Shown here: piece by piece, positions 12,116 to 63,200 of the stretch | Layout: each line of letters opens with the position of its first letter | How positions within the stretch are numbered: the stretch's first letter is position 1 | Assembly: GCA_938743325.2 (NCBI GenBank) | Contig: OW568877.1 | Span: 62,001-126,000, forward strand | Source of the DNA: Pycnococcus provasolii | Taxonomy: Eukaryota > Chlorophyta > Pseudoscourfieldiophyceae > Pseudoscourfieldiales > Pycnococcaceae | Reading direction: 5' to 3' | Length of the DNA stretch: 64,000 nucleotides | Position numbers and translations under genes: made by a program | The notes under the pieces: generated by a model | The model's database searches: none | The model's input: only the letters and a program-made list of their open reading frames with translations | What the model was told of the DNA's origin: nothing

Positions 12116-12651
12116 GACATTATTATTATTATGACGCAAACATCACCATTCACCACCGACTATCGTAGAACGTTACGATCAGTTACTTTACTTTACGATA
12201 GTTGGTAGAGGGGGAGCTCCAGAGGCCGAGAGAGAACTGAAAAAAGGCCTAACCCTAACCCTAACCCTAACCCTAACCCTAACCCTAACCCTCTAACCCT
12301 AACCCTCGAACCCTCGAACCCTATAAACCCTAACTCATTTCCCCTCCAAACCAAACCCGAATCACGGATGCCTTTCCTCCTCCAGGTGGAGGGACTCTGG
12401 TGGCCCTTCTCCTGGCAAGCCCTCTGGGAACGGGTGCGAGAGTGCGAGAGTGCGAGACCACAGGGTGCGCTTCTCGGCTCCGCCTGTTTTCTACGCAACG
12501 AATAAGCGGTCCCCTGACGCCTGAGGGTCTCCACCTCGAGGCCTAAGAGAATAAGCTTATTCTTAGTGCTTACCTCGCCTGTGGGACCCTCGTCGTACTG
12601 TACCTGTACCGTACAGAATTACAGTTAGGTAAGCTTGACGAACTCGTCGCC
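12116..12651. other. Divergent intergenic region
   Basis: It lies between the starts of the dioxygenase gene and the small spliced gene and contains the telomere-like array described separately. The rest shows short inverted copies of TTACGATAG near 12172-12200 and a run of GTGCGAGA repeats near 12431-12455. No gene seen. Confidence 0.5.
12248..12336 (+). repeat. Telomere-like CCCTAA array
   Basis: Nine or so perfect CCCTAA units followed by degenerate units (CCCTCGAAC, CCCTATAAAC). It begins about 133 bp upstream of the first ATG of the minus-strand dioxygenase gene. It is interstitial, with genes on both sides. Confidence 0.95.
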
Positions 12652-13801: not shown

Positions 13802-13932
13802 TAACCCTAACACCCTAACACCCTAACACCCTAACCCTACTCCAAACCCTAACACCCTAACCCTAACACCCTAACCCTAACTCCCTAACTCCCAAACCCC
13901 TAACTCCCAAACCCCTAACTCCCCAACCCCGT
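13802..13932 (+). repeat. Degenerate telomere-like array upstream of the SRA-SET gene
   Basis: A mixture of CCCTAA, CCCTAACA and CTAACTCCCAAACC units over 130 bp, ending 83 bp before the ATG at 14015. The units grade from CCCTAA to C-rich variants toward the gene. Confidence 0.9.
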
Positions 13933-14014: not shown

Positions 14015-16438
14015 ATGGCGCCTCCCTCCTCGTCCAAGGACGTTGACATGTCCATGAAACCACACGCTCACTCCGCCGGTGGTGGTGGTGCTTCTGCTGG
14101 TGGTGCTTCTGCTGGTGCTTCTGCTGATGGCGGTGTTTCTCCCCATCACATTCTCGCTGTACCTGGTGAAGCAGATGATGATGAACCTCCTCCTCCTCCG
14201 CGTCATAAGCGTCTTCGAACATCAATGTCGAAGTCATCGCCATCTGCTGCTGCAGGAGATCCTCCAGCACATTCATTCAGCTCGGGACTACGCACCTCGC
14301 CCCCACCACCCGAGGCAACCCCTCAAGCTCACTCCGACTTCATCGAGCAAGTGCGTCTGTACTTCAAGCGAAGATTTGACTTGGCGAAATCAAACGGAGG
14401 ACATAAGCCGGACATGACCGCGTGGGGGGACTGCAAAAAGGCATTCGACATTCCGCGAAGACACGGACATATACCCGGTGTCGACGTCGGCGACATATTC
14501 TCCGGAAGAGGAGAGGCGGCGGCGGTTGGCGTGCACAACATGATGATGCAGGGAATCGACTATATATCAAAAAGCGACGACGGAAGCCACAGTAAAGGCG
14601 CGTACGCCGTGTGCCTCGGCGGTGGGTACTGCGACGACGAAGATAACGGAGAAGTCGTCACGTACACAGGAATGGGAGGACAGTCAGGAAAACTACAGGT
14701 TCGCGACCAGGAAATGACCAAGGGGAACCTGGCGCTGCGCTGCAACTTTGAGACGGGAACGCCCGTCAGGCTGATTCGAGGAAAGAGAGACGGGTTCACG
14801 CACTTTGTCACGTACGTCTACGATGGCCTGTACAACGTCGTCGAATACACGTTCGAGCCGAGCGTAGCGACGACCAAAAAAGCGGACGCCGCCGACGACA
14901 CAACAAACACGGAGAACGGAGAGAACGGCAAGTACAAGGGACCGCCGCGCGTATACAAGTTCAAGCTTGTTCCGGTGAAGGGCGAATCGAATGTTTCCTT
15001 CCTCGCACCGTCGTTCAAGCGAATTGGACTGAGATACATGGAGAAGTTTGTCAACACCAGGATTGACAAAACGACAAACAGGCGCAAGGAGATTCCGGCA
15101 GCGGCGGAGGATCAGGGCATGGAAGGAGCAGCAGCAGGAGCAGCAGCACCTCATCCCGATTCGGCCAACGTACTGGTACACGACCTCAGCAAGGGCGCAG
15201 AACCATACCCCATACGCGTCGTCAACGACACTGGCGACGGCGATCTTGTGGGTTTCAAGCCTCTCAACGTTCCGTTCACGTACGTCGCAACGTCAGTTCA
15301 GGGCGTCGAAGCGGGACGTTCACCCGCGCCCATCTCGCGGCGCGCGCGAGAGGCGATTTCAGAGGTGGCGGCAGCAACAGCACAGATGGACGAAAAGCGC
15401 GAGGACAGCCATCGCCGGGCATTTGGGAAACAGTTCGTGAACGCCGTACCTTCGCGACGTGCATATAGCCTTGACGGTCTGCTCAAGCAGTCGAGTGAAG
15501 AAGGCCTGGTGGAGACGTGGGACGACGGCGATGCAAAGCATGCTCGCGCGGCAACTGGTGGCGACGCAGGAATGACCTTTCATGTGCACAACGAGTCGAC
15601 GTTCACAGCCAGGAGCATACATCCGGGTCTTGAGGTGTACAAGGTGAGCGAGGAGAAGGGCTGGGGCTTGCGATGCCGGCAGCGTATCCTAGCTGGGGCA
15701 TACGTCTGCGACTACGTCGGTGAGGTGTGCCGTGACTTAGAGCGTGGCGAAAACTCTCCCGAGCTTCTCTCTGACGAGTACATAATGTCACTCGACCACT
15801 ATATTGAGCATGGCACCCATGAAAATGCGAAGATGCTGCTTGCGACGGAGATGAAGTCGCCGCAGAAGCCGGGAAGTGCGGCGGTTGCGTGCAAAGATGA
15901 ACCTGAGCCTGCACCATTTCCATTACCTGCACCTGTACCTGCACCTGCGCCTGCACCATTGTCCTCACCATTGCCTGTGATTGTGGCTCGCAAGGGCAGC
16001 GGCACTGCCGCCACTACCGCCACTGTCATCACCTCCGACCACCCCTCCACTCCCACGAAGAAGACTCCGCTGGACGCACTCGAGGGCAGCGCCGCTGCCG
16101 CCAACGCCACAACCTCCGATCCGCCATCCACTCCGACGAAGAAGACCGTTCTGGACACACTCGAAGATTACTTGCTTTGCCTCGATGCGTACCAGTATGG
16201 CAACGTCGCTCGCTACATCAACACGAGCAAGGGACGAACAAACTTGATTCTGCAGCCCATCTTCACTCGCACAGATTCGAAGCAGGCGTCGAGTGCCCCC
16301 GACCCAAGTAGCATGCAATTTTACCGCATCGCTCTGTTCGCGACGCGCGACATCGAGCCGCTCGAGGAGCTGCTCTACGACTACGGCGATTTGTATTGGG
16401 CGAAGCTACGCAAGGGTGCTGATGGTCGGGAGGAGTAG
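14015..16438 (+). CDS. SRA(YDG)-SET protein, SUVH-like histone methyltransferase with atypical SET domain
   Basis: 807 residues. The N-terminal 110 are Gly/Ala/Ser/Pro-rich. An SRA domain covers about residues 155-325 (VDVGDIFSGRGE, then YVYDGLYNVVEYTFEP), which in plant SUVH proteins binds methylated DNA. A SET domain starts near 545 (GLEVYKVSEEKGWGLRCRQR) and ends near 800 (LEELLYDYGDLYW). In the family this pairs DNA-methylation reading with histone H3K9 methylation. Three departures: no cysteine-rich pre-SET zinc cluster; the usual NHSC motif reads INTSKGRTNL; and a Pro/Ala/Thr-rich insertion of about 105 residues (about 610-715), containing two copies of a STPTKKT..LD.LE unit, splits the SET domain. 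There is no post-SET CXC. Catalytic activity is uncertain. It converges with the kinase gene, 112 bp apart. Confidence 0.8.
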   Translation: MAPPSSSKDVDMSMKPHAHSAGGGGASAGGASAGASADGGVSPHHILAVPGEADDDEPPPPPRHKRLRTSMSKSSPSAAAGDPPAHSFSSGLRTSPPPPEATPQAHSDFIEQVRLYFKRRFDLAKSNGGHKPDMTAWGDCKKAFDIPRRHGHIPGVDVGDIFSGRGEAAAVGVHNMMMQGIDYISKSDDGSHSKGAYAVCLGGGYCDDEDNGEVVTYTGMGGQSGKLQVRDQEMTKGNLALRCNFETGTPVRLIRGKRDGFTHFVTYVYDGLYNVVEYTFEPSVATTKKADAADDTTNTENGENGKYKGPPRVYKFKLVPVKGESNVSFLAPSFKRIGLRYMEKFVNTRIDKTTNRRKEIPAAAEDQGMEGAAAGAAAPHPDSANVLVHDLSKGAEPYPIRVVNDTGDGDLVGFKPLNVPFTYVATSVQGVEAGRSPAPISRRAREAISEVAAATAQMDEKREDSHRRAFGKQFVNAVPSRRAYSLDGLLKQSSEEGLVETWDDGDAKHARAATGGDAGMTFHVHNESTFTARSIHPGLEVYKVSEEKGWGLRCRQRILAGAYVCDYVGEVCRDLERGENSPELLSDEYIMSLDHYIEHGTHENAKMLLATEMKSPQKPGSAAVACKDEPEPAPFPLPAPVPAPAPAPLSSPLPVIVARKGSGTAATTATVITSDHPSTPTKKTPLDALEGSAAAANATTSDPPSTPTKKTVLDTLEDYLLCLDAYQYGNVARYINTSKGRTNLILQPIFTRTDSKQASSAPDPSSMQFYRIALFATRDIEPLEELLYDYGDLYWAKLRKGADGREE

Positions 16439-18876: not shown

Positions 18877-18943
18877 GAGAAATGGCCAGATTATAGGCCA
18901 AAATCGCTGTTTTTGGCCAGATTATAGGTTTTTCCTAACCCTA
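18877..18943 (+). repeat. Left terminal inverted repeat of the Mutator-like element
   Basis: Starts GAGAAATGGCCAGATTATAG. It contains the 15-mer TGGCCAGATTATAGG twice (18883 and 18914, 31 bp apart) and ends in CCTAACCCTA. Confidence 0.95.
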
Positions 18944-19013
18944 GACCTAACCCTACACCCTAATCCCTAACCCTACACCCTAATCCCTAACCCTACACCC
19001 TAATCCCTAAAAC
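18934..19013 (+). repeat. Telomere-like minisatellite inside the transposon
   Basis: Units of CACCCTAATCCCTAACCCTA in tandem, about three copies, directly continuing from the telomere-like inner edge of the left inverted repeat. A closely similar array occurs at 44696-44772. Confidence 0.9.
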
Positions 19014-20605: not shown

Positions 20606-21406
20606 TCCTGATCCCAGATGCCAGAGGAGGCGATGCGGACGGATTGCGTCGGATCCGATCCTCCTTGGCCCTTGCGTTGCTCCAGTCCTCCCTCCACAGC
20701 TCCCTCCACCGAGTGACCGAGAATAGCTCGTGGACGAGGTGAGGAGGATCAGCGCAGAGGCCGATCGAGTCTACGATAGCGAGGACGACGTGGCACTCAC
20801 ACCAAACCATCCTCGGCCTCGTGAGACAATTCATCCGTGATGAGGAACCAATTTGCAAATTATGTACCACAAGCAAGTCGAGGATACCACTCTTCGTTTC
20901 ATCTGCCAAGGCGTGTTCTTGCTTGGCAATCGTGGTAATTTTACAATTACGGGCACAGAACGGAGAATTGATTCACATGCAAGACGTGAGGAGTGAGCAC
21001 AGTAGCACGCGCGTCAAGTCGCGTATTGGCGTAGACGGTAGAAGTACAGTAGAAGTGAGCGCTGAGAATCAGTTCGAGTTGAGTTTGTTGAGTTTGCTGC
21101 GAGCGCCACGGCGGATCCTCTGGGAGCCCACGGGAGGAGGCGGACAGTACACGAGGACGACGAAGCAGACCACTGAAGCAGACCACTGAAGCAGGCGGCA
21201 GGCCAGCCGGTAAAATATATTTGGGCGCAGCTTGGCGCGCCGCTCCCCTCCGCCGACACACACACACACACTCTTTCTTTGCTGACACAGCTATCTTAAG
21301 GCTCAAGTGGTAGCTGTACCACTTAATAAGTGTATAGCTCTTGCTGCTTGTCTTTCCTTTCTTTGCTGTGTGTGCGTGTGCGTGTGTGTGCGTGCGTGTT
21401 AAGACC
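20606..21406. other. Upstream region of the NPC1/Patched-like gene
   Basis: No convincing gene on either strand. A (CA)n tract near 21257-21271 and a GT-rich TGTGTGCGTGTGCG tract at 21366-21400 lie just ahead of the ATG. The sequence contains one direct duplication of GAAGCAGACCACT near 21164-21186. Confidence 0.5.
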
Positions 21407-24400
21407 ATGCTGGCGGCGATCGAAGGTGCGCTCCAGAAGTCGTACGCAGGCTTCGGACGCGCGGTGCCTGGCCGATTCGCTATCGTCACGCTCGCGGTGG
21501 CCGCCGTCTTGCTCGCCGTCGCGGGCGTCGGGTACGTTGCCGTCGAGAAGGAGACGGACGTCTTCGAACTGTGGGTCGACGACACCAGCAGGCTCAAAAG
21601 CGAGCTCGACTTCTACGACGACAACTTCGGCGGCTCGAGAACGCAGAGCCTCATCGTCACGCCAAAGACGAAGGACGTCAACCTACTCACGCCCGAGGCG
21701 CTCGACGAAGTCAAGGAAATCACGAGGTGGTTCAGAGACCTGCAATACAAAGCTAACGTGAACGGCAAGGAGGAAACCATCACGCACGCGGACATATGCT
21801 CCAAGGCGGTGGAGACGACGAACGCAGACCCGTGCTTCGTCTTCTCGCCACTCGACTGCTTCATGGAGGGCCGCTACGCCGTCGTCGGCGAGGAGAACAA
21901 CCACGTGCCGTGGCAGGGATACGACGGGCGTGCTTCCGCGCAGTGCATCAACCACCCTAACCCTGCACTCAGGACGAACTTGACGTACGAGTACCTGCGC
22001 GACAGGTGCAGGTACTTCTTCAACATCAAGTACCCGTACCACATCGTGTTCGGAGGGCCGCGGTGGAAGGACCCCGCCACCACAGAGCTGAAGCACCCTT
22101 GGTTCCGCCCCGAGGCTGTAAGCGAGCACGGCAACCTGACGCTCGACTCGGTGAAGTCGTTCCGCCTCCTCTTTCCGACGCTCGACGAAAAGCTGCTGCA
22201 CGAGAAGGGCGTGCGCAAGGTGGACTTCAAACAGGCGCAAGAACGCGACGAGGACATACTCACGTGCCCGCGCGCGGCGTGCGAGAACGTCCCGCTCCAC
22301 GGAAATCGAACTTTGGGCTGCGATTGCACGACGTGCACAAGGGATGGGCCAGAAAATACTTGGTTTAACGCGCTAGTTGCTCTAAAGGCCAAGTGCCAGC
22401 CGATTCCAACGCTTGCTACACAACATCCCGAGTGCTGCGCGTGGATGAAGAGTGTGCGCGAGCACCCGTGCGTCGAGCACCTCTGGGCGTGGAACGCGCA
22501 GGCGGTGCAGACTGGCGCGTATGTTCTGCAGCAGTGCGGCCTTCCCCCCGTGCGACCGTTCATCGCCGTCGATCGATGCAAGGAGTCCAAACTTGCCCCG
22601 AACATCACCACGACGACGACGATGGTGACGACGACGACGACGACGACGCCACAAGCTGCTCCGGAATGCTGGCCATCCAATCCCACGGATATGTGCGGCG
22701 CAGAGGCGCTCACGCCCCCGCTCGCAGCCTGCATCGGCGGTGTGGCGAACGAGGCTTGCTGCGGCGCGCTGAAGGACAACATCGGCGCGGACTCGGACAA
22801 GTCATCGTCGCGATGCTTCTGCTACGACACTGTTGTGGAGGGCGCGAAGACGTCTCTTGCCGGATACAACCCCGCCGCGGATCTCGGTGCGATCATTGAC
22901 ACGTGCAATACGGACTTCGGCGCGAATGTACCGTACGCCAATGGCACGTCGTCGTCGAGTACCTGCGAGTGCGCAGCTCCTGCTCCGGAATGCTGGCCAT
23001 CCAATCCCACGGATATGTGCGGCGCAGAGGCGCTCACGCCCCCGCTCGCAGCCTGCATCGGCGGTGTGGCGAACGAGGCTTGCTGCGGCGCGCTGAAGGA
23101 CAACATCGGCGCGGACTCGGACAAGTCATCGTCGCGATGCTTCTGCTACGACACTGTTGTGGAGGGCGCGAAGACGTCTCTTGCCGGATACAACCCCGCC
23201 GCGGATCTCGGTGCGATCATTGACACGTGCAATACGGACTTCGGCGCGAATGTACCGTACGCCAATGGCACGTCGTCGTCGAGTACCTGCGAGTGCGCAG
23301 CTCCTGCTCCGGAATGCTGGCCATCCAATCCCACGGATATGTGCGGCGCAGAGGCGCTCACGCCCCCGCTCGCAGCCTGCATCGGCGGTGTGGCGAACGA
23401 GGCTTGCTGCGGCGCGCTGAAGGACAACATCGGCGCGGACTCGGACAAGTCATCGTCGCGATGCTTCTGCTACGACACTGTTGTGGAGGGCGCGAAGACG
23501 TCTCTTGCCGGATACAACCCCGCCGCGGATCTCGGTGCGATCATTGACACGTGCAATACGGACTTCGGCGCGAATGTACCGTACGCCAATGGCACGTCGT
23601 CGTCGAGTACCTGCGAGTGCGCAGCTCCTGCTCCGGAATGCTGGCCATCCAATCCCACGGATATGTGCGGCGCAGAGGCGCTCACGCCCCCGCTCGCAGC
23701 CTGCATCGGCGGTGTGGCGAACGAGGCTTGCTGCGGCGCGCTGAAGGACAACATCGGCGCGGACTCGGACAAGTCATCGTCGCGATGCTTCTGCTACGAC
23801 ACTGTTGTGGAGGGCGCGAAGACGTCTCTTGCCGGATACAACCCCGCCGCGGATCTCGGTGCGATCATTGACACGTGCAATACGGACTTCGGCGCGAATG
23901 TACCGTACGCCAATGGCACGTCGTCGTCGAGTACCTGCGAGTGCGCAGCTCCTGCTCCGGAATGCTGGCCATCCAATCCCACGGATATGTGCGGCGCAGA
24001 GGCGCTCACGCCCCCGCTCGCAGCCTGCATCGGCGGTGTGGCGAACGAGGCTTGCTGCGGCGCGCTGAAGGACAACATCGGCGCGGACTCGGACAAGTCA
24101 TCGTCGCGATGCTTCTGCTACGACACTGTTGTGGAGGGCGCGAAGACGTCTCTTGCCGGATACAACCCCGCCGCGGATCTCGGTGCGATCATTGACACGT
24201 GCAATACGGACTTCGGCGCGAATGTACCGTACGCCAATGGCACGTCGTCGTCGAGTACATGCTCGTGCGCAGCTCCTGCTCCGGAATGCTGGCCATCCAA
24301 TCCCACGGATATGTGCGGCGCAGAGGCGCTCACGCCCCCGCTCGCAGCCTGCATCGGCGGTGTGGCGAACGAGGCTTGCTGCGGCGCGCTGAAGGACAAC

Positions 24401-27001
24401 ATCGGCGCGGACTCGGACAAGTCATCGTCGCGATGCTTCTGCTACGACACTGTTGTGGAGGGCGCGAAGACGTCTCTTGCCGGATACAACCCCGCCGCGG
24501 ATCTCGGTGCGATCATTGACACGTGCAATACGGACTTCGGCGCGAATGTGCCGTACGCCAATGGCACGTCGTCGTCGAGTACATGCTCGTGCGCAGCTCC
24601 TGCTCCCACGACATCGACAACGACGATGACAACAACGAAGCCAGACTTCTGCTCTAGCCCAGCGTATCCTCTGGGGGGTAAGTCAGACACGGTGAGCACG
24701 ACACTCAAGGTGGCATCTGAGAAGGAAGCTTACGACATATTGTACGGTTGGGAGAATCTCTGGACAAAGTCCATTTCTGCGGAATTGGCCAATTTAACCA
24801 AGTACAAGCACATCAAGGTTTCTTACCTCTCCGGGAGCTCCGTCGAAGACACGATTAAAGATGCATCGAATAGCCAGATCCCGCTGCTCGTTCTTGGCTA
24901 CGGCCTTGTGATTGTGTACACCGTATGGCTGTTCCTTCCGTTTAACCCGCTCGCGCAGCGCCCAGATGTGGGAGTCGTTCCGCCTGGACCGCTTGCGGCG
25001 GTGGCTGTCGTTTGCTTCATCGCTCTTTCGACGTGGGGAGCACTTGGCATAGCCGGCGCGATCAGTACCGGCGACGTTAAGTTCAATGCGCTGACGCTGC
25101 AGGTGGTTCCATTCTTGGCGCTTGGCCTTGGCGTGAACGATTTCCTTGTTCTTGCGCAAAGCCTTAGCACTTGCTACGCGGAACGCCCGTTGGAAGCCGA
25201 TGCGACGTCGATTATCGCGGAGACAATGCGGCACGGTGGTGTGAGCGTGACGCTCTCATCGGTTACCAACACATTTGCGTTCCTGCTCGGCATGCTTTCC
25301 GGAATACCCGCCGTTCGTGCCTTTGCACTGCATATTGCTCTTGCTGAGCTCTTCAACTTTTTGCTTACACTGTTCGTCTTCCCCTCAATCCTGTTCCTCG
25401 AAACACGTCGTTTCCTGGCGATGAATAAGGAGCAGGGCAAGGCTGCACCAGCACCCGGTGCCGGTAAGGAGGTGACAGAGTCACGCGCCAAGAAAATCGT
25501 GGATTTCTTCAACACTCCGTTGGGTATGGCTGTGCGAGTATTCCTCGCTGTTCTCTCCGTCGCCCTTCTCATTTTCTGCGCATTTGGCATTCCTGATGTG
25601 AAGGTGGGTCTTCGCCTGACGGACGTTATCCCCAAGGGTAAACCGCTTCACAAGTATGCTGTTGATGTCGAAGATGTGTACTGCACGTCGCCAGTCTACC
25701 TGACGTACCGCGGCATGGACTTCGAAAAAATCGTGGAAGATTCTCTTAACCTGAATTATGAGTTCGTCAAAGACGGGCACAACATGGATTTCATCTACGA
25801 GGTGACCTCGCAGTACAACTATTACCTTGAATTTATCGAGGGACAGCTGCAGAGCGACGAGGTTTGCACGTGGGAGGTTACGTATGTGAAGGATCCCTGG
25901 CGCGAAACGATAAATACCTGCGAGGGGAAAACTTCAGCGGCATGCGAGGCAGACTGCAAGTCAAGAAATGCCGAAGGTGCACAGAAGGCTGCCCCTGCTG
26001 ACAAGAAGTGCAAGTACTCGAACGAAACCAACACCTGCTACTGTCCGTATCGCCCAATGCTCAAGCCTGAATACTTTTACAACATATCCACCGATGTCAA
26101 GCTTGATGAAGCAGACCACCGAGAGGAAACTGAAAGTGGCACCAACATTCGAATCCTCGACAAGTTCTTCGATGGGCCTGTGAACGGGCGTGTTTCCAAA
26201 TTTCTCACAGGCCAGGCGTACGATCGCATAAGTGCGGCCAACGACACCTACGGAAAGCTGACAGCTGCAAGAACTCTCACATTTGCAGAGAATATGTGCA
26301 GCTACGACGAGCGCATTAAGCACATTAAGCGCGGTCGCGAGATTGCGGATGCAAGCTCTCTGAACGCCAAAGGCATATCGCCTGGTGGCAAGATGAAGAA
26401 CGTCTTCCCCTTCGATTGGATCGTCTACGCGCTAACGGAGCAGTACTTGCATATCGAGCATCAGACGCTCATTGCGCTGGTCATTTGCTGCATAACGATA
26501 TTTGTGGTCATGATGCCGTTTGTCGTGCACCCCGCGACGAGCTTGCTTGTGACGAGCGTGATTGTGAAGATCCTTGCGGAGCTGTACGGGCTCATCTTCT
26601 GGACAGGCTTGAAGCTTAACGCCGTCACGATGATCAACCTGCTGATTTCTGTTGGCGTGGCAGTGGAGCTCACGGCTCACGTCGGTCGTGAGTTCATGGT
26701 GAGCCAGGGCACGCGTCTCGAGCGTGCCGTGAAGGCTGCAAGCGACATGGCCTGGCCGTTGACAAACGGCGCTTTGAGCACGTTCATTGGCATCATTGCC
26801 ATTGCCTTCTCTGACTACGAGTATTTCCGCAATTACTTCTTCATGCAGTACTTGCTCATCTTGGTCATCAGCCTTTGGAATGGGCTCGTGTTTTTGCCTA
26901 GCTTGCTGAGTGTGGTGGGCCCACCGGCATACAACGCGGGCGAGGGTGCTGGTTCTTCCGCAGGCAAGGATCCTGAGCAGGGGAAGTCCGACAAGGCATA
27001 G
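21407..27001 (+). CDS. NPC1/Patched-family (RND) sterol-sensing transporter with six cysteine-rich lipid-transfer-like modules
   Basis: 1,864 residues from the ATG at 21407; the frame is open further upstream but through a GT-repeat. TM1 is at about 25-47, followed directly by a luminal/extracellular domain, so the NPC1 N-terminal cholesterol domain is absent. Residues 419-1066 are six 108-residue modules, flanked by Thr-rich linkers on both sides. The sterol-sensing-type block begins near 1157 (LLVLGYGLVIVYTVWLFLPF) and includes LGLGVNDFLVLAQ, the counterpart of the acidic TM4 motif of Patched/RND pumps. TM7, a second Cys-containing luminal domain (about 1400-1660) and TM8-12 with LLISVGVAVELTAHVGREF follow, as in NPC1. 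Each module has Cys spacing C-x11-C-x8-CC-x17-CxC-x27-C-x19-C plus two extra Cys, like plant eight-cysteine lipid-transfer proteins. Role by family: membrane lipid/sterol movement. The modules are inferred to bind lipid. Confidence 0.8.
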   Translation: MLAAIEGALQKSYAGFGRAVPGRFAIVTLAVAAVLLAVAGVGYVAVEKETDVFELWVDDTSRLKSELDFYDDNFGGSRTQSLIVTPKTKDVNLLTPEALDEVKEITRWFRDLQYKANVNGKEETITHADICSKAVETTNADPCFVFSPLDCFMEGRYAVVGEENNHVPWQGYDGRASAQCINHPNPALRTNLTYEYLRDRCRYFFNIKYPYHIVFGGPRWKDPATTELKHPWFRPEAVSEHGNLTLDSVKSFRLLFPTLDEKLLHEKGVRKVDFKQAQERDEDILTCPRAACENVPLHGNRTLGCDCTTCTRDGPENTWFNALVALKAKCQPIPTLATQHPECCAWMKSVREHPCVEHLWAWNAQAVQTGAYVLQQCGLPPVRPFIAVDRCKESKLAPNITTTTTMVTTTTTTTPQAAPECWPSNPTDMCGAEALTPPLAACIGGVANEACCGALKDNIGADSDKSSSRCFCYDTVVEGAKTSLAGYNPAADLGAIIDTCNTDFGANVPYANGTSSSSTCECAAPAPECWPSNPTDMCGAEALTPPLAACIGGVANEACCGALKDNIGADSDKSSSRCFCYDTVVEGAKTSLAGYNPAADLGAIIDTCNTDFGANVPYANGTSSSSTCECAAPAPECWPSNPTDMCGAEALTPPLAACIGGVANEACCGALKDNIGADSDKSSSRCFCYDTVVEGAKTSLAGYNPAADLGAIIDTCNTDFGANVPYANGTSSSSTCECAAPAPECWPSNPTDMCGAEALTPPLAACIGGVANEACCGALKDNIGADSDKSSSRCFCYDTVVEGAKTSLAGYNPAADLGAIIDTCNTDFGANVPYANGTSSSSTCECAAPAPECWPSNPTDMCGAEALTPPLAACIGGVANEACCGALKDNIGADSDKSSSRCFCYDTVVEGAKTSLAGYNPAADLGAIIDTCNTDFGANVPYANGTSSSSTCSCAAPAPECWPSNPTDMCGAEALTPPLAACIGGVANEACCGALKDNIGADSDKSSSRCFCYDTVVEGAKTSLAGYNPAADLGAIIDTCNTDFGANVPYANGTSSSSTCSCAAPAPTTSTTTMTTTKPDFCSSPAYPLGGKSDTVSTTLKVASEKEAYDILYGWENLWTKSISAELANLTKYKHIKVSYLSGSSVEDTIKDASNSQIPLLVLGYGLVIVYTVWLFLPFNPLAQRPDVGVVPPGPLAAVAVVCFIALSTWGALGIAGAISTGDVKFNALTLQVVPFLALGLGVNDFLVLAQSLSTCYAERPLEADATSIIAETMRHGGVSVTLSSVTNTFAFLLGMLSGIPAVRAFALHIALAELFNFLLTLFVFPSILFLETRRFLAMNKEQGKAAPAPGAGKEVTESRAKKIVDFFNTPLGMAVRVFLAVLSVALLIFCAFGIPDVKVGLRLTDVIPKGKPLHKYAVDVEDVYCTSPVYLTYRGMDFEKIVEDSLNLNYEFVKDGHNMDFIYEVTSQYNYYLEFIEGQLQSDEVCTWEVTYVKDPWRETINTCEGKTSAACEADCKSRNAEGAQKAAPADKKCKYSNETNTCYCPYRPMLKPEYFYNISTDVKLDEADHREETESGTNIRILDKFFDGPVNGRVSKFLTGQAYDRISAANDTYGKLTAARTLTFAENMCSYDERIKHIKRGREIADASSLNAKGISPGGKMKNVFPFDWIVYALTEQYLHIEHQTLIALVICCITIFVVMMPFVVHPATSLLVTSVIVKILAELYGLIFWTGLKLNAVTMINLLISVGVAVELTAHVGREFMVSQGTRLERAVKAASDMAWPLTNGALSTFIGIIAIAFSDYEYFRNYFFMQYLLILVISLWNGLVFLPSLLSVVGPPAYNAGEGAGSSAGKDPEQGKSDKA
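22661..24604 (+). repeat. Six tandem 324-bp in-frame repeats
   Basis: Units start at 22661, 22985, 23309, 23633, 23957 and 24281 with no length change. They are identical apart from a few bases: copies 1-4 end in ACCTGCGAGTGC, copies 5-6 in ACATGCTCGTGC, and copy 6 has one further synonymous change (GTACCG to GTGCCG). Near-identity including third positions indicates very recent amplification or ongoing conversion. Confidence 0.97.
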
Positions 27002-34399: not shown

Positions 34400-34633
34400 G
34401 AAGGAGCTCCTGGGTATAAGAAATGACATTTCGTGGGTATAGCGATTCTGGACAAATTTGGTCGGGAGGGTTAGGTTAGGTTAGGGTTAGGGTTAGGGTT
34501 AGGGTTAGGTTTATAACAGTAAAATGGTCGAGGCCAAGTTAAACCCTAATCTGAAAGTTGTCTCGACCAAATGTCTCGACCAAAAGTTCGCTATACCCAC
34601 GAAATGTCATTTCTTATACCCAGGAGCTCCCTC
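34400..34633. mobile_element. Miniature inverted-repeat element with TA target site and internal telomere-like array
   Basis: 234 bp. The ends are inverted repeats of about 46 bp: GGAGCTCCTGGGTATAAGAA onward at 34403-34445 matches the complement of 34588-34630 exactly, with one mismatch in the outer three bases. A TA lies on each side (34398-34399 and 34634-34635). The interior holds a TTAGGG array at 34468-34510 and two TCTCGACCAAA copies. No coding sequence. Confidence 0.85.
34468..34510 (-). repeat. TTAGGG array inside the miniature element
   Basis: Two TTAGG units followed by five TTAGGG units, with CCCTAA on the minus strand, i.e. in the sense of the downstream CPP1-like gene. Confidence 0.95.
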
Positions 34634-34851: not shown

Positions 34852-35835
34852 TCATGATGTCAACTGCAGGTACCTGCGCGCGTACCGGCCGACGGCGCCT
34901 ACCGCAGGCGCGCCCGCGGCGTACACCCAGCAGATCCAACTCGGCGTGCCGAACCAGTCCGCGGAAGTGTACGTGTACAAGTGAAGAGCATTAATCAACG
35001 CAACCTCAAGCAATGGGCCGCATACGGCGGTCAGTGCAGCCATAAACGCACCTCCAGCCGTGTTGTCGAACACGCGCCACGTTAGCAACGCAAGCACGGC
35101 GAGCGGAACGTCTACTGCAACGACGTGCTCGCTCCCAACGGCACGTTGCGCGAGTTCGCCAGAGAGCCAATAGTCGAACGAGAAAACAAGGACCGCGCTT
35201 GCAACGAACCATGCGCTCGGCCTTGTGACTCGTACTGGCAACGCCATCTCCTTCGCGTTCTTTGTGTCGTGGTAGTCGTCAAGCAAAGGGTGGCTCACTC
35301 CCAAAATAATACCCGCCAGACCAAACAGAAGCGGGACCCACCAGCAAGTCTCCAACTGATACACGTCGCCGAATCGCAAGATGGATGGGTTCGTGTAGTG
35401 AAGGACGTTATGGCTCGAGTGCGTTCCGTCGAGAACCGGTCCGAGCAACGCACCCGCCACGAACGACACGAACGCCAGCGGAACGACGTGTTTGATGGCA
35501 GAGTCCGTGGTCTCGTTTGCGTCGCGTGCGGAAGAGGCAGCGTACACGTCGTTTCTCTTGGAATGTGAATCTCCTCTCCACCTTCTCGCCCACGTTGGTG
35601 TCGACGTCCGAAAGTCAATCACGCGTGCTTGACAACGCCGAGCTGACTTCGAAGAAACCCGTCTGCGATGTCGCCCATCATCACCACCACCACCACCATC
35701 ACGGTATGATGACGACGAAGTTCGAGATGACTTCAAGAGAGAATGAGCACGAACACCACGAGGATATCTCACTGACGAACGAGAGCGGCACAACCCCAAA
35801 GGCAAAGGACAACAAAAGGTTTGCGACGTAAACAT
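34852..35835 (-). CDS. INSIG-like membrane protein, probably plastid-targeted
   Basis: 327 residues from Met at 35835; frames open from Met at 35871 and 35919 are alternatives. Residues 1-115 are Ser/Arg-rich with a Gly run, typical of a transit peptide. About six hydrophobic segments follow from residue 118. Conserved wording matches the INSIG family: CWWVPLLFGLAGIILGVSHPLLDD, a middle WRVFDN, then LYTYTSADWFGTPSW and GAVGRYARRYL at the end. In animals and fungi INSIG proteins bind sterol-sensing domains in the ER; algae and plants have distant relatives of unknown role. The family call is reasonable, the location is inferred from the leader only. It is divergent from the cytochrome b561 gene. 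Confidence 0.6.
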   Translation of the reverse strand: MFTSQTFCCPLPLGLCRSRSSVRYPRGVRAHSLLKSSRTSSSSYRDGGGGGDDGRHRRRVSSKSARRCQARVIDFRTSTPTWARRWRGDSHSKRNDVYAASSARDANETTDSAIKHVVPLAFVSFVAGALLGPVLDGTHSSHNVLHYTNPSILRFGDVYQLETCWWVPLLFGLAGIILGVSHPLLDDYHDTKNAKEMALPVRVTRPSAWFVASAVLVFSFDYWLSGELAQRAVGSEHVVAVDVPLAVLALLTWRVFDNTAGGAFMAALTAVCGPLLEVALINALHLYTYTSADWFGTPSWICWVYAAGAPAVGAVGRYARRYLQLTS

Positions 35836-36042
35836 GAACGAATGGCTCAACAAGCACGAACGATACGCCATGTGAGCTTTATAAAAAAATCCACAGAGCC
35901 AGGATATATATGGGCCCATGAGGTATTTCTTTTATACGATAGTGCCAGGTGGCACCATCTATCTGTAACCCTAACCCTAACCCTAACACACACACCCTGG
36001 GGCCCTACTGTTAAAATCCGCCGCAATTCTTCTCACAAGCCC
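35836..36042. promoter_or_regulatory. 207-bp shared upstream region with CCCTAA array
   Basis: It lies between the divergent starts of the INSIG-like and cytochrome b561 genes. It contains TATATATGGG at 35906-35915 and a perfect array of three to four CCCTAA units at 35966-35988, 55 bp from the right-hand ATG. A bidirectional promoter is an inference from the spacing. Confidence 0.5.
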
Positions 36043-44644: not shown

Positions 44645-44772
44645 TTTCGCCTGAAGTGGACCAAAAAAGCCGAATTTCGCCTGAAGTGGACCGTTAACTA
44701 ACCCTAGCCCTAACCCTAGACCTAACCCTAACCCTAATCCCTAACCCTACACCCTAATCCCTAACCCTACAG
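44645..44772 (+). repeat. Transposon-end-like module: duplicated 18-mer plus telomere-like array
   Basis: TTTCGCCTGAAGTGGACC occurs at 44645 and 44675 (30-bp period), followed at 44696-44772 by CCCTAGACCTAACCCTA and tandem CACCCTAATCCCTAACCCTA units. The layout and the array match the left end of the Mutator-like element at 18877. It starts 95 bp upstream of the SRPBCC gene's ATG. Confidence 0.85.
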
Positions 44773-53992: not shown

Positions 53993-54268
53993 GGTGCGAG
54001 GCAGAAGTGTGTGAGGTTGGGTCGGCGGTTCTGGTCGGCATTTGTTTTTCTCAAGTCCCCCCCGGCTATTCATTCTTGGCCATCACGCCCGTGGACGCTC
54101 TCCTGGGAGGCGTATGCTGCTATGCGCGATGCTGGTGACGTTGACGACCTCATAGGCTCATCCGTTGAAGTATCTTCATCCTGTGCACTCCACGCCACGT
54201 CCGATACACATTCACATTTAAGACACGTTTCTCGGCGACGACGTTGCGTTGCTCGGACGACCTCTTTG

Positions 54269-57200
54269 ATGATGACGGGCTCTTGTCATCGGGCTTGTCT
54301 CAGAGATGTGATGCTCCTCGTCGTGCTCTTCACGTGCTGGCTTGGACGACTCGCAACTTGCGCGGTTATTAAGGAAGACTGCCTGCTGCTCAACTACTAT
54401 CCGCCGACGAACAAGTTAGGCAAACTTGACATACCGGACGTGTCCAGCCAAGTCACAGGGGCGTTTACCGTCGAATTCTGGTACAACATGTACCAGACGC
54501 GTGCTTCCGTTACCACAGGAAACGAGTGGCCGGCGCTCGGAAGGCTGGCGCTGTTCTACTCGCGAGACGAGCACCTCGCCGACTCTGGGCGCGTCTTCGT
54601 CGACACGCACGCGACGGACGGAACGCTGAAGTTTGAGGTGCAAGGGTACCCGTCTGTGTCGAGCACGAGAAAGCTCGTGCCGAGGCAGTGGCACCACCTC
54701 GCTTTCGTGTACGATAATACGCCCAGCGCCGGCGGCCTGTCCCTCTACATAGACGGCGTTCTCGACGGCAGCAGCGACTTCACAGCGACCAACGCGGCGA
54801 ACCACGCCACCGCGGTGAAGTTTGACGGCTTCACGATGGGATATGATCGGCCAGGACTGACGGCGCTGTACAACCAGGCGTACTTGCGCGACGTCCGCAT
54901 ATGGAGTGTCGTGCGCACATCCACCGACATTCAGGGCACGATGCTCACAACCATCACCGCCCCAACTCCGAATCTCGCGCTGTCGCTGCCGTTGAGCAAG
55001 GCGTCGCTCTACCAGGACAAGAGCGGCAATGGCTTCGACGCGAGCGACCCGGGCAACCAGAACATGTTCGTTGGGAGCACGCCAGCTCTCACCGTGAACC
55101 CGGGAAACTTCATCACAAGCAAGAAAGGCGCGGGCTTCCAGATGAACGTGAACGGAGTTGCGGACACCGCACTGCGCGCATACTACGCCATCGTTCCGAC
55201 CGGCACGAGGCAGGCGGGCTGGGTTGCCGAGTTCTTCGCGCTCAGCGCCGATGCATTTGGCACCGAGAACGCCTACCACGTCGAAGTGAGCATGATGTCC
55301 ACGGCGACAAATTTGCGCGAGGTGGTGAGCGAAGTGAACTACGCCTCAGGAGCGGGCCATTTCACGACAACAGGCACGATACCAGCCGGATATGGAGTGG
55401 CAAGTCGGTTTTCCTGCCTGCTCAGCGTAACGTCAGGTGGCACGTACACGTTCTACGTCAACAGCCAGGACGGCGCGAGACTGTACATTGACACTGGAGC
55501 AGGGTCGACGTTCTTCCCGCTGAATCAGCACGCCTTCACTGCGTCAGACTACCTCGTCGTTGACAACTCCGGCGAGAAGACAGCGATGACTGAAAAGAGC
55601 GGCACGGTTACGCTGAGCGCCAACACGGAATACCGCGTATACGTCGTCCACGGATCACGCCCGAGTGCAAGTGCCCGTGGCCTGACGGTAAGCTGGTCTG
55701 GCCCAGACACAAGCGACGTGAAGCAGGTGATTCCTTCGGCGAAGACGATCGCAGGCCCGCTCGCCGTGCGATGGTCGCTGGAAGGTGGTGCTCTCGTCTC
55801 TGGCAACTTTGCGGTATCCGCGGGCGGTACGACAGCCACCCACATGGTCTCCGCGGCCGCGGGCCTATCCGAAGCAACAGCGTACGACATCTACATTGTC
55901 TCAGCCGTGGAGCGCTACGGTAGCTCTGACAACCCGTACGAGTACGAGCCTATACAGGGAAGTGTCACTCCGTCGCCGAAGCAGAGCGTCACAACGCTTG
56001 CCACGCCGTCAGCCACGACGAGCACTCTCACGGTTGCAGAGGGCGGCACGGAGACGTTAACGGCGACGCACCTCACGATCACCGATGCTGATAGCACTGA
56101 CAGCGAGCTTAAGGTGACGCTTGCAACGGCGCCAACACAGGGCACGCTCAAGCTCTCTGGTACAGCTCTCGCCGTGGGAGACGCTTTCAGCAAGGCGCAG
56201 CTTGTCGCTGGGGACGTAACGTACGTCCACGGCGGCTCGAATGCTAATAGCGACGGGATGCAGTTTTCGGTGACCGACGGCACGCACACGGTCTTCAACG
56301 TGAATTTCGTAATTAGCACTGATGCCGTCGACGACGCTCCAACCGTCGCCAACACGTCTCCCACGGCGGAAGTGTCATCTGGCAGCAAGGTCACTATCGG
56401 CACCAGCGTCATTGACATCACAGATGGCGACACTGCTGATGACTCGGTGACGGTGACGATCACATCGGCACCCGCCAGTGGCCGTGTCGAGCTGTCGTCT
56501 GCGCCGGGCAACGCAATCACAAGCTTCACAAAGGCTCAGATCGTGTCGGGAGTGGTGCAGTACGTTCATGATGGCACCGCTTCAACAACCGATAGTCTGC
56601 AGTTTACCGTGACTGATGGCACGACAACCACCTCGGCGTACACGCTTAGCATAACAGTGAATTCTGTCGATGCATTGCCACCAACCGTGACGGTTGGAAC
56701 ACTTTCGGTGGCCGAGGGAGGCACGCTGTCTATAACCCCGGCCATGCTGTCTGCGACAGACGCAGGTATCGACGATGCAACGATCGGGTTCACGGTCACC
56801 ACGCCGCCGTCGAGTGGACGCCTGCAGATTGTGGACAATCCGGGTATAACCATCTCATCTTGGACCATGGGGCAGATAAGTGATGCAAAGCTCGAGTACG
56901 TGCAAACGCAGGCGAACGTCAATAGCGACTCTTTCCAGGTTACGGCAACGGATGGCACAAACACGGGTTCTGCAACCACCGTAACCATCAACATTCAAGC
57001 CGTCGATAATGCAGCCACGACGGCACAGATTGGCTCCGCTTTTGCTGTCAATGAGGGAGAAACGAAATCCATTTTGGCGACCAACCTAGTCATTTCCGAT
57101 GCGGACACTTCGCCGAGCGCGGTGTATTGTAGTATTACTGATACACCAACCAAGGGGATTTTGCAGCTTTCAAGCGCACGCGGAACGCCGATCACCTCGT

Positions 57201-60200
57201 TCACCGCCGCGCAGATTAGCGCTGGAACTGTCGAATACGCGCACGATGATAGCGAATCGAACAGTGATGCATTCAGCTTCTCCTGCTCCGATGGCACTAA
57301 TACGCCCGCTGTCGGCGTATTCAGCATTACCGTTGTCCCTCAGAATGACAACACGCCAACGATTCAAACGAGTTCCGTTTCGGTGGATGAAGGGTCATCT
57401 GTACAGATCGGAGTCGCAAGTTTACTCGCCACAGATGGTGATGTCCAAACGGAAGCTAAAGATCTCACTTTCACGGTAGCCGCTGGTTCTCCGGCAAAGG
57501 GAGTCTTGCAGATTAGTGGCGCGGATGTGACATCGTTCACACAGGAAGACATAAATAATCTGCGCGTGTCGTACAAGTCAACGGCGATGGATGGAACCAC
57601 CGACGATACCATCAAGGTGACAGTCTCAGACGGTTCTCGAACATCTACCGAAGCATCTATTTCGGTGAGCATCTCGCCGCAGGGTGGCAACGCGCCCACG
57701 GTGACGTTTGGCTCAGATCCACTCCGTATCGAGGAGGGCGGCGCAACGTACCTCTTAAAAGATAAGCTCACGGCAGAGGCGAGTACGGGTAGCGTGCCGA
57801 AATCACAGATAACATTCACAGTGACCGAGCTCGACCGGCTAAACATCTGGAAGGATGCGTCACAAAATCAAATGAGCTTTACACAGGCTGACATCGATTC
57901 GCTGAAAATTCGTCTCGTCCACGATGACTCGGAGTCCTCGTCCGCAAGCTTCGTTTTCACGGTGGACGACGGAAATGGCAACGTGAGCCCTGCTCAGCGC
58001 CTGAATGTTCTCGTAGACCCGTACAATGATAACATTCCCGTTATTTCGAAGAAAACTTTCAGCTGTACCGAGGGAGCGACGTGCACCATTACAACGGCGT
58101 TCCTGAGCGCATCAGATGAGGATCTTCCAAGGGAAAATCTTGTGTTCACGCGAAGCGGATCAGGGCCAATCTTCGGTTACCTGCAGTTAGCAAACAATCC
58201 GGGCATCCCCATCAGGACATGGAGTCAGCAGAATATCATCGACGGTCTGTTTCAGTATTACAACGATGGAAGTGAGGCGGCGTTTGATAGCTTCAACGTG
58301 CGCGTATCAGACGGCATGAATCAAGCGCAGGCGCCGTTTTCAATCACGATTATCCCCGTCAATGATGCTCCAGTCATCGAAAATAACGTCGGGCTTAATG
58401 TCGACGAGGGCGGCACACGCTCGTTCTCACAGCTTGTTCTCAAAGTTCGCGATGACGACACGCCGGAGGCGGATATAAAGTTTACGCTTACATCCGGGCC
58501 AGCTTACGGGTCTATCCTCCTGAACAACAACCCAACGCAGACCTTTACGCAGGCGGACATCAATTCTAATCCTGCCACTTTGCGTTACCTTCAAGATGGA
58601 ACGGATACGCTCACCGATAGCTTCTCTTTCACGGCAACAGACGGAAACACCGTGCTAACGGGAACATTTAGCATCACTGTGAATCCGATTGATGACAACG
58701 CCCCAGCCTCCGTCAAGTCTGGTCCTGCGACCGTGACAGAGGGCGAACGAGTCACTCTTACAGACGGCGATCTGGAAGCGAAAGATAGTGACACAGCAGA
58801 TGTCTCGAAGATCATTTTCAATCTCGTCAGCACGCCGGGCTCTGGATATCTTCAACTTTCCGGGACACCTGGGCAGGCATCAACGTTCACCCAGGCAGAT
58901 ATCAACTTGAACAAGTTGTCGTACCAGCACGACGGAAGCAATACGGCTGTTGACACGTTCACGTACAGTCTGGCGGATGCTGCTGGAAACACGATGACAG
59001 GTGCACCACTCAGCTTCACGGTGAATATTATACCGGTAGATGATTCGGCGCCCACGAGAGCAAAGAATACCGGCCTTGCTCTGCAGGAAGGTGAGCTGAA
59101 GACAATTTCTAAGTTGGAACTCGCCTACACCGATGCGGACACCGACGACAAGACGCTGGTCTACACAATCACGAGCATTCCGATGTTTGGCATGGTCGTG
59201 AAATCCAGCGCACCGACGACACCGCTGACAACGTTTACGCAAGGCGACATTGACAACGGCATTATTCAGTATCAGCATGACGATTCTGAGACGGGCAGTG
59301 ATAGGTTCAGTTTCAAGGTTTGCGATGGCGCTAGCAACTGCATCCAGTCTCAGAGGTTCACGCTGACGATCGTTCTTGTGGACGATCAGCCACCCACGGA
59401 GGTGGTGAATACGGGCATCCAGTTAGATGAGGGGACAGGAATGCAGGTTGGCAAGTCTCAGCTTAAGTACACCGACCTTGACTCAGACGATGAGCAGCTG
59501 AAATTCACCGTGACGACGGCCCCGACAAATGCCATCATTTCCGTCGTCGAGCCACCGCCGCCACCCACGTACTCGCCGCCGCCACCGCCACCACAGGTAC
59601 TCGATAACTCGACTGATTCGACGGGGCGCCGTCAACTGTTCGCATACTGGTACCTTGCCGATGGTCACTCGCCTTACGACCTGATTGGGCGCCGTCATCT
59701 TTTGAACACGAATCCCACCTTCACGCAACGTGACTTAGACATAGATGCCGTCCGTATCGTGCATGATTCGTCAGAAACGACCGACGCGTCGTTCGCCTTC
59801 ACAGTAACTGATCCGGCGAATAATGTCGCCAACGGCAACTTTGCGGTTACAGTACAACTTGTCGACGATGAGCCGCCTGTGATTGACGTCAATCAGCCTT
59901 TAACTGTGCAAGAACGCGGTACACAGTCGCTGACAAACTTGATTCTTGCCGCAAGCGACCCGGACACTGACAAGTCCAAGTTGGCCTTTCTCATTCAGCC
60001 GGGTTTTCCGACTGGTGGATGCTTCAAGATTGCCACTAAGTGCACGTCAACGTTTACACAGAAACAGATCGACGACGGCGCAGTCACATTCGAAAACGAT
60101 GGATCGGGTACAGCGGGTGCGGAATTTACCGTTACCGACGGTGCCGGGCATGAGACGAGTCCGGCTGCCGTGTTCGTCATTAATGTTGTGCAGATTGACG

Positions 60201-63200
60201 ATGCGCCAATTGTGACACTTGGCTCGAATCCCCTCACCGTGAAAGAGGGCAAGCGCGAAACTCTAACGAATGCATACATCACGATATCCGACAGCGATAC
60301 GGATGCTGCTGACGTGGCGCTCAACATTGAATCTGGACCCGGGCACGGAATCATGCAGCTGTCGGACAATCGTGGTACAGCGATCACTTCTTTCACGCTT
60401 GCTGACCTGCTCGCGTCGAAGGTTGAATATCAGCACGACGGCTCAAATACGGTGACGGATGCATTCCACTTCACGGTGAAGGATGCGCTCACCACGCTCC
60501 CGAAAACGCAGTTTCCAATAACGATCATTCCAGTGAACGACGATCCTCCGATTGTGGATGTGAATCGCGTTCTCTCGGCACGTGAGGGTGAGTCAACCAC
60601 TATCGACACTTCGTCTCTATCCGCATCGGATGCCGATTCGCCCGTCTCGGACATTAAATTCGTTATCACCTCCAACCCGACGTACGGTGTTGTGGAGTTG
60701 AACGGAGCGACGGTGACTAGCTTCGGGCAGCAGGATCTTCTCGATGGCACGCTGAAGTACAAGCACACAGCTGCAGATGGTGCATCTGAAGCTGACTCCT
60801 TTGCGTTCACGGTGACGGACGGAACTAATTCTGCACCGCTCGCTACATTCACCATAACACTCGTGGATGTTGATGATATGCCCCCACAGGTTGACGTGAA
60901 CGAGGGCATTACGTGCCCCGAGGGAGGAAGCCGTGTCATCACGTCAGATCGCCTTTCGCTCAAGGACCCAGACACCGCTGACCCTGCCAACTGGCGTGCA
61001 CAGGTAACAGTGCCAGCAGCCGTGGGGTACTTGCAGTTGGTGAGCAATCCTGGAATTCCCATCACAGAGTTCTCGCAGGCGGATATTCTTGCGGGGCAAC
61101 TTCAGTACGTCCATGACGGCAGTGAGACCGTTTCTGACACCTTTTCGTTCGTCACGAAGGACGGTACGAACACGCTAGCCAACGCGGTCGTGGTTCAGGT
61201 CACGATTACGCCCGTTGACGACACGGCGCCCACAAACTCAGCCGCGGATGGCAGCGAAATCGTCGTTCCTAGAGGTCAGAAGCGTGTCATTGACACGACG
61301 ACATGGAACTACATCGACCCGGAGAAGGAAAATTCGCTTCTGGAGTTCGAAATCATCGGGCCACCAAGCGCGGGCACACTTCTTATCGACGGAAAGGTTT
61401 CGACCTCATTCCTTCAGCGTGATGTCAATGAAGGGAAGGTGGAATACCAGCATGATGGCGGTGATGTGTTCACGGACAAGATCATGTTCACCGTGTTCGA
61501 CGGTACCGTGAAAACTCAGACGCAGACGTTGAATGTGAAAATTACCGACAGCGCAAAGCCTTTCGTGAAAAGTTTCCGAGTCGAAAATGAGGCTGCAACC
61601 TCGTTTGATGGCCTACTGACGATGTCGGAGATATCGACCGTTTACTACGGCATCATGAAATGTGAGCATATTATACCATGCACTCCAAAATGCCCGAAGG
61701 CGGCTAATGTCGTTGCCGGGCAGTACGGCGGTGTGGAAATCATGAAATCTTCGCTTTCTTACAAAACGTCGGGATCCGAGGTGACAATTGCTTTCGCGAA
61801 CCTGGAGCCAGCGACACGATATCATGTGTGCATTGTGGGCGTTGACACTGCAGGCAACATGCAAGAGCAAACGTTTGGTGGGATTGGGAACACGCTGGGC
61901 TTGATCGCGGCACCAGACTTCATTCGCCTTGCAGAGGCTGGTGGCGAGACCCCGTTCCGAGTTGCTCTCGGCGTGAAGTCGACAGCTGACCTTGAAGTTA
62001 CCGTCAGTGTGCCCGCGGCGGCGCAGGCCAATCAAGTACAGTTTATGCTTTCGCACAGCAAGTGCGAATTCATCCCGAAATTTTGCCAAGAGTACAGTTC
62101 CACGGTCTCGTTCACGCTGCCCGCGGCAGAACCCGACTTCTTCGTTTCGGTCGTGACGAAGGCTGTTGACGACCAACTCGCTGAGGGTGACCATAACATC
62201 GGTATTTCGGTGTCGTACACGACAACGGATCCCACCTACGCGGGCTATGGCAAACCTTCTGACGTGACGGCTCAAATCGCGGACAACGACGAGGCGCGTG
62301 TACTCCTCACACCTCAAGAGCAGATTGTGAACGAGGGTGAAAGGGGCAAGCTTGTCGTCTCGCTGTTTGCTGGACCGCCACCGGGAGAAACTGTCACGGT
62401 GAAACTTACCTCGGGCGAACCGAATCGGATGTATCTAGGCACTTCGGCTGACGATGAGGGGAAGTCGTCGCAGACGGTCGTGCTGGACAACAGCAACTGG
62501 AGCACGGGCGTGCCATTAGACGCCATTGCTCGCAGGACGCCTGGCGCAAATGAAGACACGGACATTCCTGTCGTTGCTGCGGTGCAGAGCACGGTTACGG
62601 CATACAACGGTCTCCCCGTGGATAATGCCATCATCACGATCAAAGACTTAACGCCGCCAGGTATCGTGCTTGATCGACCGCGCATCGCGCTGAACTTTGA
62701 CACTCCGCGCCAGGAACTTCGCGTGACGCTGTCGACGCAGCCTACGGCACTTGTGGATGTGCGCACGGGTGAAATTGCCGGCCCGGCATTTAACATTTCA
62801 TCGCCTGATGCCGGCGATGCTATCTGTCCCAGCTGCTCGACGCGACAGCTTATGTACACACCATCGCGGCTCCAATTTGCGCCGGACACCTGGGATGTGC
62901 CCCAGCTGGTTATTGTCGAGAGGATCTCCGACGCTGTGGCATGTGGCACGTGGTGCACCGTGGACTGTTGCCTTGAAGCCGTGTCTTTTGAAGTTACGAC
63001 CGCATTTAAGGGAGCCTCTCAGGGTGATACGGACTACAACGGCACAACTACAAACCTCATCTCCGATGTCATGGACATGGACAGGCCAGGCATTCGCACT
63101 AGCGCAGCACTCAGCCGACGCTCGAAATCGTTTGGTACATCGGGAGATTTCGAAACGCTCATCTCAAGGGCGTACGGCAAGGTTCTGCCAATCAGCAGTG

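Follow-up and report, generated by a model that had tools for sequence, protein, structure and literature searches.

Why would a sterol-sensing transporter of a marine green alga carry an array of cysteine-rich repeats? The question is raised by a gene (21407..27001, + strand) in a 64,000-nucleotide stretch of Pycnococcus provasolii DNA (contig OW568877.1, positions 62,001 to 126,000 of the forward strand), referred to as the window; coordinates are counted from its first letter. The encoded protein is an RND transporter of the Patched/NPC1 type with a sterol-sensing domain (SSD), and its array resembles the eight-cysteine motif (8CM) of plant non-specific lipid-transfer proteins (nsLTPs). We favour, tentatively, the reading that it is a Patched-like lipid transporter into which an 8CM array has been built, perhaps for lipid capture.

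A six-unit cysteine array inside a transporter frame

The gene lies in a single uninterrupted frame (21341-27001, +), whose first ATG, at 21407, opens a protein of 1864 aa. The frame and the Pfam and PDB matches indicate a complete gene, and its counterpart in P. provasolii, P0002, has the same start Met. The first transmembrane segment (TM1, residues 24-42; 21476..21532, +) coincides with a Kyte-Doolittle peak of 2.58. It is followed by the Patched-like part of extracellular domain 1 (21533..22264, +), recognised by the match of residues 29-157 to PTCH1 chain 90-228 (E 7.9e-8); no separate PDB match was obtained for the remainder of this part. Next come a Cys-rich stretch termed 'module 0' (22265..22579, +), a Thr-rich linker (22598..22663, +), the array itself and a second Thr-rich linker (24608..24646, +), both linkers being evident from the sequence. 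The sterol-sensing/Patched SSD block (24998..25417, +) matched PF12349 (E=1.3e-23) and PF02460 (E=1.7e-16), at scores exceeding the curated cut-offs (84 bits vs. 22.3 and 60.8 vs. 23, respectively). The C-terminal RND membrane half (26447..26899, +) was identified by hydrophobic peaks and PTCH1 homology; with residues 1674-1839 aligned to PTCH1 chain 913-1078, the protein has two RND halves. The hydropathy profile contained 13 peaks, several of them overlapping, and the family standard is 12-13 TM helices. These matches, together with those to PTCH1 and NPC1, bear out the transporter type proposed in the initial annotation. An INSIG-like open reading frame was also noticed some 8 kb away from the SSD gene (34855-35919, - strand; PF07281, E 2.8e-10); in animals, sterol-sensing domains have INSIG as a partner.

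The array consists of six tandem 324-bp units (22661-24604; Tandem Repeats Finder 22656-24606, 99% matches). Units 1-4 are identical at the DNA level, and units 5 and 6 differ from unit 1 by 3 and 4 nt, respectively. Each unit encodes 108 residues with 10 Cys, giving 648 residues in total. In frame (+), module 1 (residues 420-527) occupies 22664..22987, module 2 22988..23311, module 3 23312..23635, module 4 23636..23959, module 5 23960..24283 and module 6 24284..24607; module 5 ends in CSC in place of CEC, and module 6 also ends in CSC. Repeat, frame and Pfam positions agree that the six modules stand between TM1 and the sterol-sensing block, as the initial annotation had it. The Cys spacing of unit 1 is 8,11,8,0,17,1,27,19,1, which is the 8CM order C-C-CC-CxC-C-C plus one additional Cys before and one after. 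This plant-type order with two extra Cys, and the NVPYAN segment in the module, were both found in the sequence as first described. The pattern C-Xn-C-Xn-CC-Xn-CXC-Xn-C-Xn-C was present in 6/6 window units and 5/5 P0002 units. When the composition of one module was shuffled, it arose in 25 of 200,000 sequences under a strict definition (no other Cys between) and in 221 of 200,000 under a loose one. The window has 559 stop-to-stop frames with a length of 60 aa or more, and the loose pattern occurs in none but this one. The modules are acidic, with a pI of 4.05.

Given the near-identity of the units, false repeat copies introduced by assembly were considered. The window genome fits the published assembly of P. 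provasolii CCAP190/2, for which 444x HiFi coverage and a QV (quality value) of 58.2 are given (PMC11130579). Because of this sequencing depth and quality, and because another P. provasolii record, P0002, independently has five units, an assembly artefact is scarcely credible.

Relatives with modules at the same site

A search of 5.8 billion proteins returned P0002 of P. provasolii, labelled 'Niemann-Pick C1 protein', as the best match. P0003 aligned with 40% of the window protein, at 36% identity, and P0009 and P0010 were 52% and 45% identical to P0003. The search for similar proteins with inserted Cys-rich repeats, proposed with the initial annotation, was thus productive, with P0002, P0003, P0009 and P0010 found. 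The search yielding P0009 and P0010 scored the 7999 candidates sharing most words, and more relatives may exist. P0003, P0009 and P0010 contain 'module 0', with conserved Cys in the alignment, and several divergent eight-Cys 8CM modules of about 75-85 residues at the same site as the array; the 8CM pattern occurred at three places in each of them and in none of P0005-P0008. By eye, 'module 0' is perhaps a degenerate 8CM, and some modules of the relatives are without certain Cys. P0003 and P0009 are incomplete, without TM1, and P0010 stops before TM2. In P0009, the PTCH1 match restarts at residue 504 (PTCH1 chain 383), about 25 residues past the last module. Since the modules stand at the same place in the relatives, the site is fixed and the architecture older than P. 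provasolii; the near-identical units of the window array arose by a recent re-expansion.

No description of such an arrangement appeared among the open-access literature matches listed, subscription journals being outside that search. The earlier statement that no such protein had been described stands in this respect, but the protein is not unique, as three relatives have divergent arrays.

The window protein and P0002 were compared outside and inside the array. The flanks were identical at 418/419 (99.8%) and 792/797 (99.4%) positions, and the P0002 modules matched the window module at 92-97 of 108 residues (85-90%). Given near-identical flanks, modules at 85-90% identity and five versus six units, the array differs in copy number and has undergone homogenisation. 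A window-type module, identical at 100/106 residues, was also present in P0004, a P. provasolii beta-helix/TSP1/SAM protein, the N-terminal part of which belongs to a dispersed family with at least 41 matches in the window genome (32,333,900 bp in 46 contigs, i.e. 44 chromosomes and two organelles). Beyond the six array units, a module search of this genome returned a single related module (29% identity), which lies in a 662-aa Pro/Gln-rich frame, L007 (C9:481112-481393); this module scored 17.6 bits against PF00234, below the cut-off of 21.7. By eye, an FN2-like stretch lies ahead of the module in L007. The simplest reading of these comparisons is a homogenised array with possible exchange between genes.

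The same data suit a near-neutral process in which tandem duplication and gene conversion expanded a tolerated domain and the copy number is functionless. Identical units 1-4, the five versus six units and modules that differ by 10-15% between near-identical flanks are in line with it. Against it, the frame is intact, the cysteines are retained in all six and all five units, and modules are present in distant relatives too. We regard this explanation as unlikely.

Array proteins outside NPC1 and possibly close to Patched

The initial annotation had suggested that the array could take the place of the NPC1 N-terminal domain. Among the best 60 of 89 matches to solved structures by sequence, PTCH1 ranked ahead (E 8e-62), followed by NPC1 (1.3e-49), NPC1L1 (9.7e-42) and the yeast-type NPC1-related protein (6.1e-30). 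With the first 399 residues alone, the E values were 7.9e-8 for PTCH1 and 0.0014 for NPC1. In the tree, the window protein, P0002, P0003 and P0009 formed a 100/100 group, joined to PTCH1 at 92/90, a value that is not starred and comes from 11 rows with a single Patched row and two long-branched paralogs from the window genome. Fish NPC1L1, Limtongia, Acorus and the green alga Myrmecia, all with the NPC1 N-terminal domain, formed a separate 100/99 group. On these sequences, the array proteins fall outside NPC1, and their position on the Patched side is a lead.

PTCH1 is without the NPC1 N-terminal domain. As observed earlier, this domain (PF16414) was not among the Pfam matches of the window protein; given the grouping outside NPC1, its absence is expected and is not a loss. 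The window protein and Patched have in common the SSD, the C-terminal RND half and the start of extracellular domain 1. Unlike Patched, the window protein is green-algal and has the Cys-rich array in extracellular domain 1. NPC1, NPC1L1 and NCR1 are homologous to it in the SSD and the C-terminal half, but it differs from them in the absent N-terminal sterol-binding domain, in an array between TM1 and TM2 of a Patched layout, and in its place in the tree.

It could still be argued that this is an NPC1 gene in which the array was acquired to do the work of a lost N-terminal domain. The window genome contained 11 SSD matches including this gene, one ML/NPC2-like match and no NPC1_N match, although the six-frame family search had no working control and introns could hide an exon. 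The algal NPC1 P0007, which has the N-terminal domain, matched the genome at 11 places, none in its first 391 residues, where again introns could hide an exon; its best match was the gene studied here. However, PTCH1 outscored NPC1, and the array proteins grouped with PTCH1, away from the four NPC1s bearing the domain. We therefore consider such a substitution improbable, and the view that the array historically replaced that domain is not upheld.

Likeness of the modules to plant lipid-transfer proteins

The likeness to the prolamin superfamily (DIR1, nsLTP1, 2S albumin) begins with the eight Cys of the window module, which follow the same order. The module spacings of 11, 8, 17, 27 and 19 are inside the land-plant range of 8-30 given in PMC9832785. 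A VPY-like segment precedes the last Cys of the module, and nsLTP1 chains have IPY or VPY. When the window module was compared with nsLTP1, the real score was reached by 0/1000 and 1/2000 shuffles in which the Cys were fixed. This likeness beyond the cysteines is limited to the window-type module, as 9/10 other modules were unremarkable in the same shuffles. A mixed module profile search matched DIR1 and Ara h 2 (E 0.12-9), and no prolamin protein was among the matches of further searches with the modules. The window module had no Pfam match, and the PF00234 and PF14368 cut-offs were not reached. Kinship of the window modules with plant nsLTP/8CM proteins is supported by the statistics; a clear structural match was not obtained. 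The lipid-transfer likeness proposed at first has the support of the shuffles and the mixed profile.

The differences are also considerable. The window modules have two extra Cys, are acidic and are arranged in tandem inside a large membrane protein, whereas nsLTPs are small secreted proteins with a signal peptide. According to PMC9832785, 8CM proteins of green algae have unusual spacing and a lower pI, which the window modules share, but these algal nsLTPs are secreted; Chlamydomonas nsLTPs bind fatty acids. The screen in that source discarded candidates above 60 kDa, and Pycnococcus is absent from its table; the window protein was invisible to it for these two reasons.

A possible lipid-capturing role of the array

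How Patched, NPC1 and other SSD-RND transporters take up lipid and pass it on is still debated. In animals, the task of supplying lipid to the transporter is divided between NPC2 and the NPC1 N-terminal domain. In the Patched-like transporter that we favour, extracellular domain 1 is lengthened by the tandem 8CM array at a single, constant position ahead of the stretch that leads into TM2. Each module would form a disulphide-locked helical pocket taking up lipid outside the cell or in a lumen, and the array would boost the local lipid supply at the extracellular entry of the transporter. It is possible, though more speculative, that a tethered, strain-variable lipid-transfer array feeds sterols or other lipids to the pump; such a system would be a self-contained counterpart of the NPC2-to-NPC1 hand-over, having arisen in green algae on the Patched side.

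Comparisons of the module with the four-helix 8CM fold were weak or negative. The same module occurs in P0004, a protein without a transporter part. Because of this occurrence, a close rival is that the array is a stalk or an adhesive, cell-surface spacer, which lifts or shields the extracellular domain or fastens it onto the cell covering, and binds no lipid. The related module in the Pro/Gln-rich frame, the Thr-rich linkers on both sides of the array, the copy number of five or six, the acidity of the modules and the loss of Cys in some modules of the relatives, as seen by eye, would all suit a spacer. On the other hand, modules stand at one transporter site in the window protein, P0002, P0003 and P0009, all with the SSD core, and in the fragment P0010, and the window module resembles nsLTP1 more closely than shuffled versions do. 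We rate the spacer as somewhat doubtful.

Should the modules prove to bind lipid, the pump would come equipped with a lipid-catching array of its own. A protein in which lipid-transfer-like modules are fused at one constant place but differ in number would permit a test of direct hand-over. Plant-type 8CM domains would also occupy, in a green alga, a context where they were not expected.

Other features of the window

A protein with SRA and SET domains is encoded at 14015-16435 (+). Telomere-like CCCTAA/AGGGTT arrays were found within the chromosome at 12248-12334, 13802-13930, 18934-19010, 34467-34513 and 44698-44769. A giant open frame (54122-64000, +) that runs off the window contains 17 cadherin-like (PF16184) stretches, PA14 and LamG-like domains.
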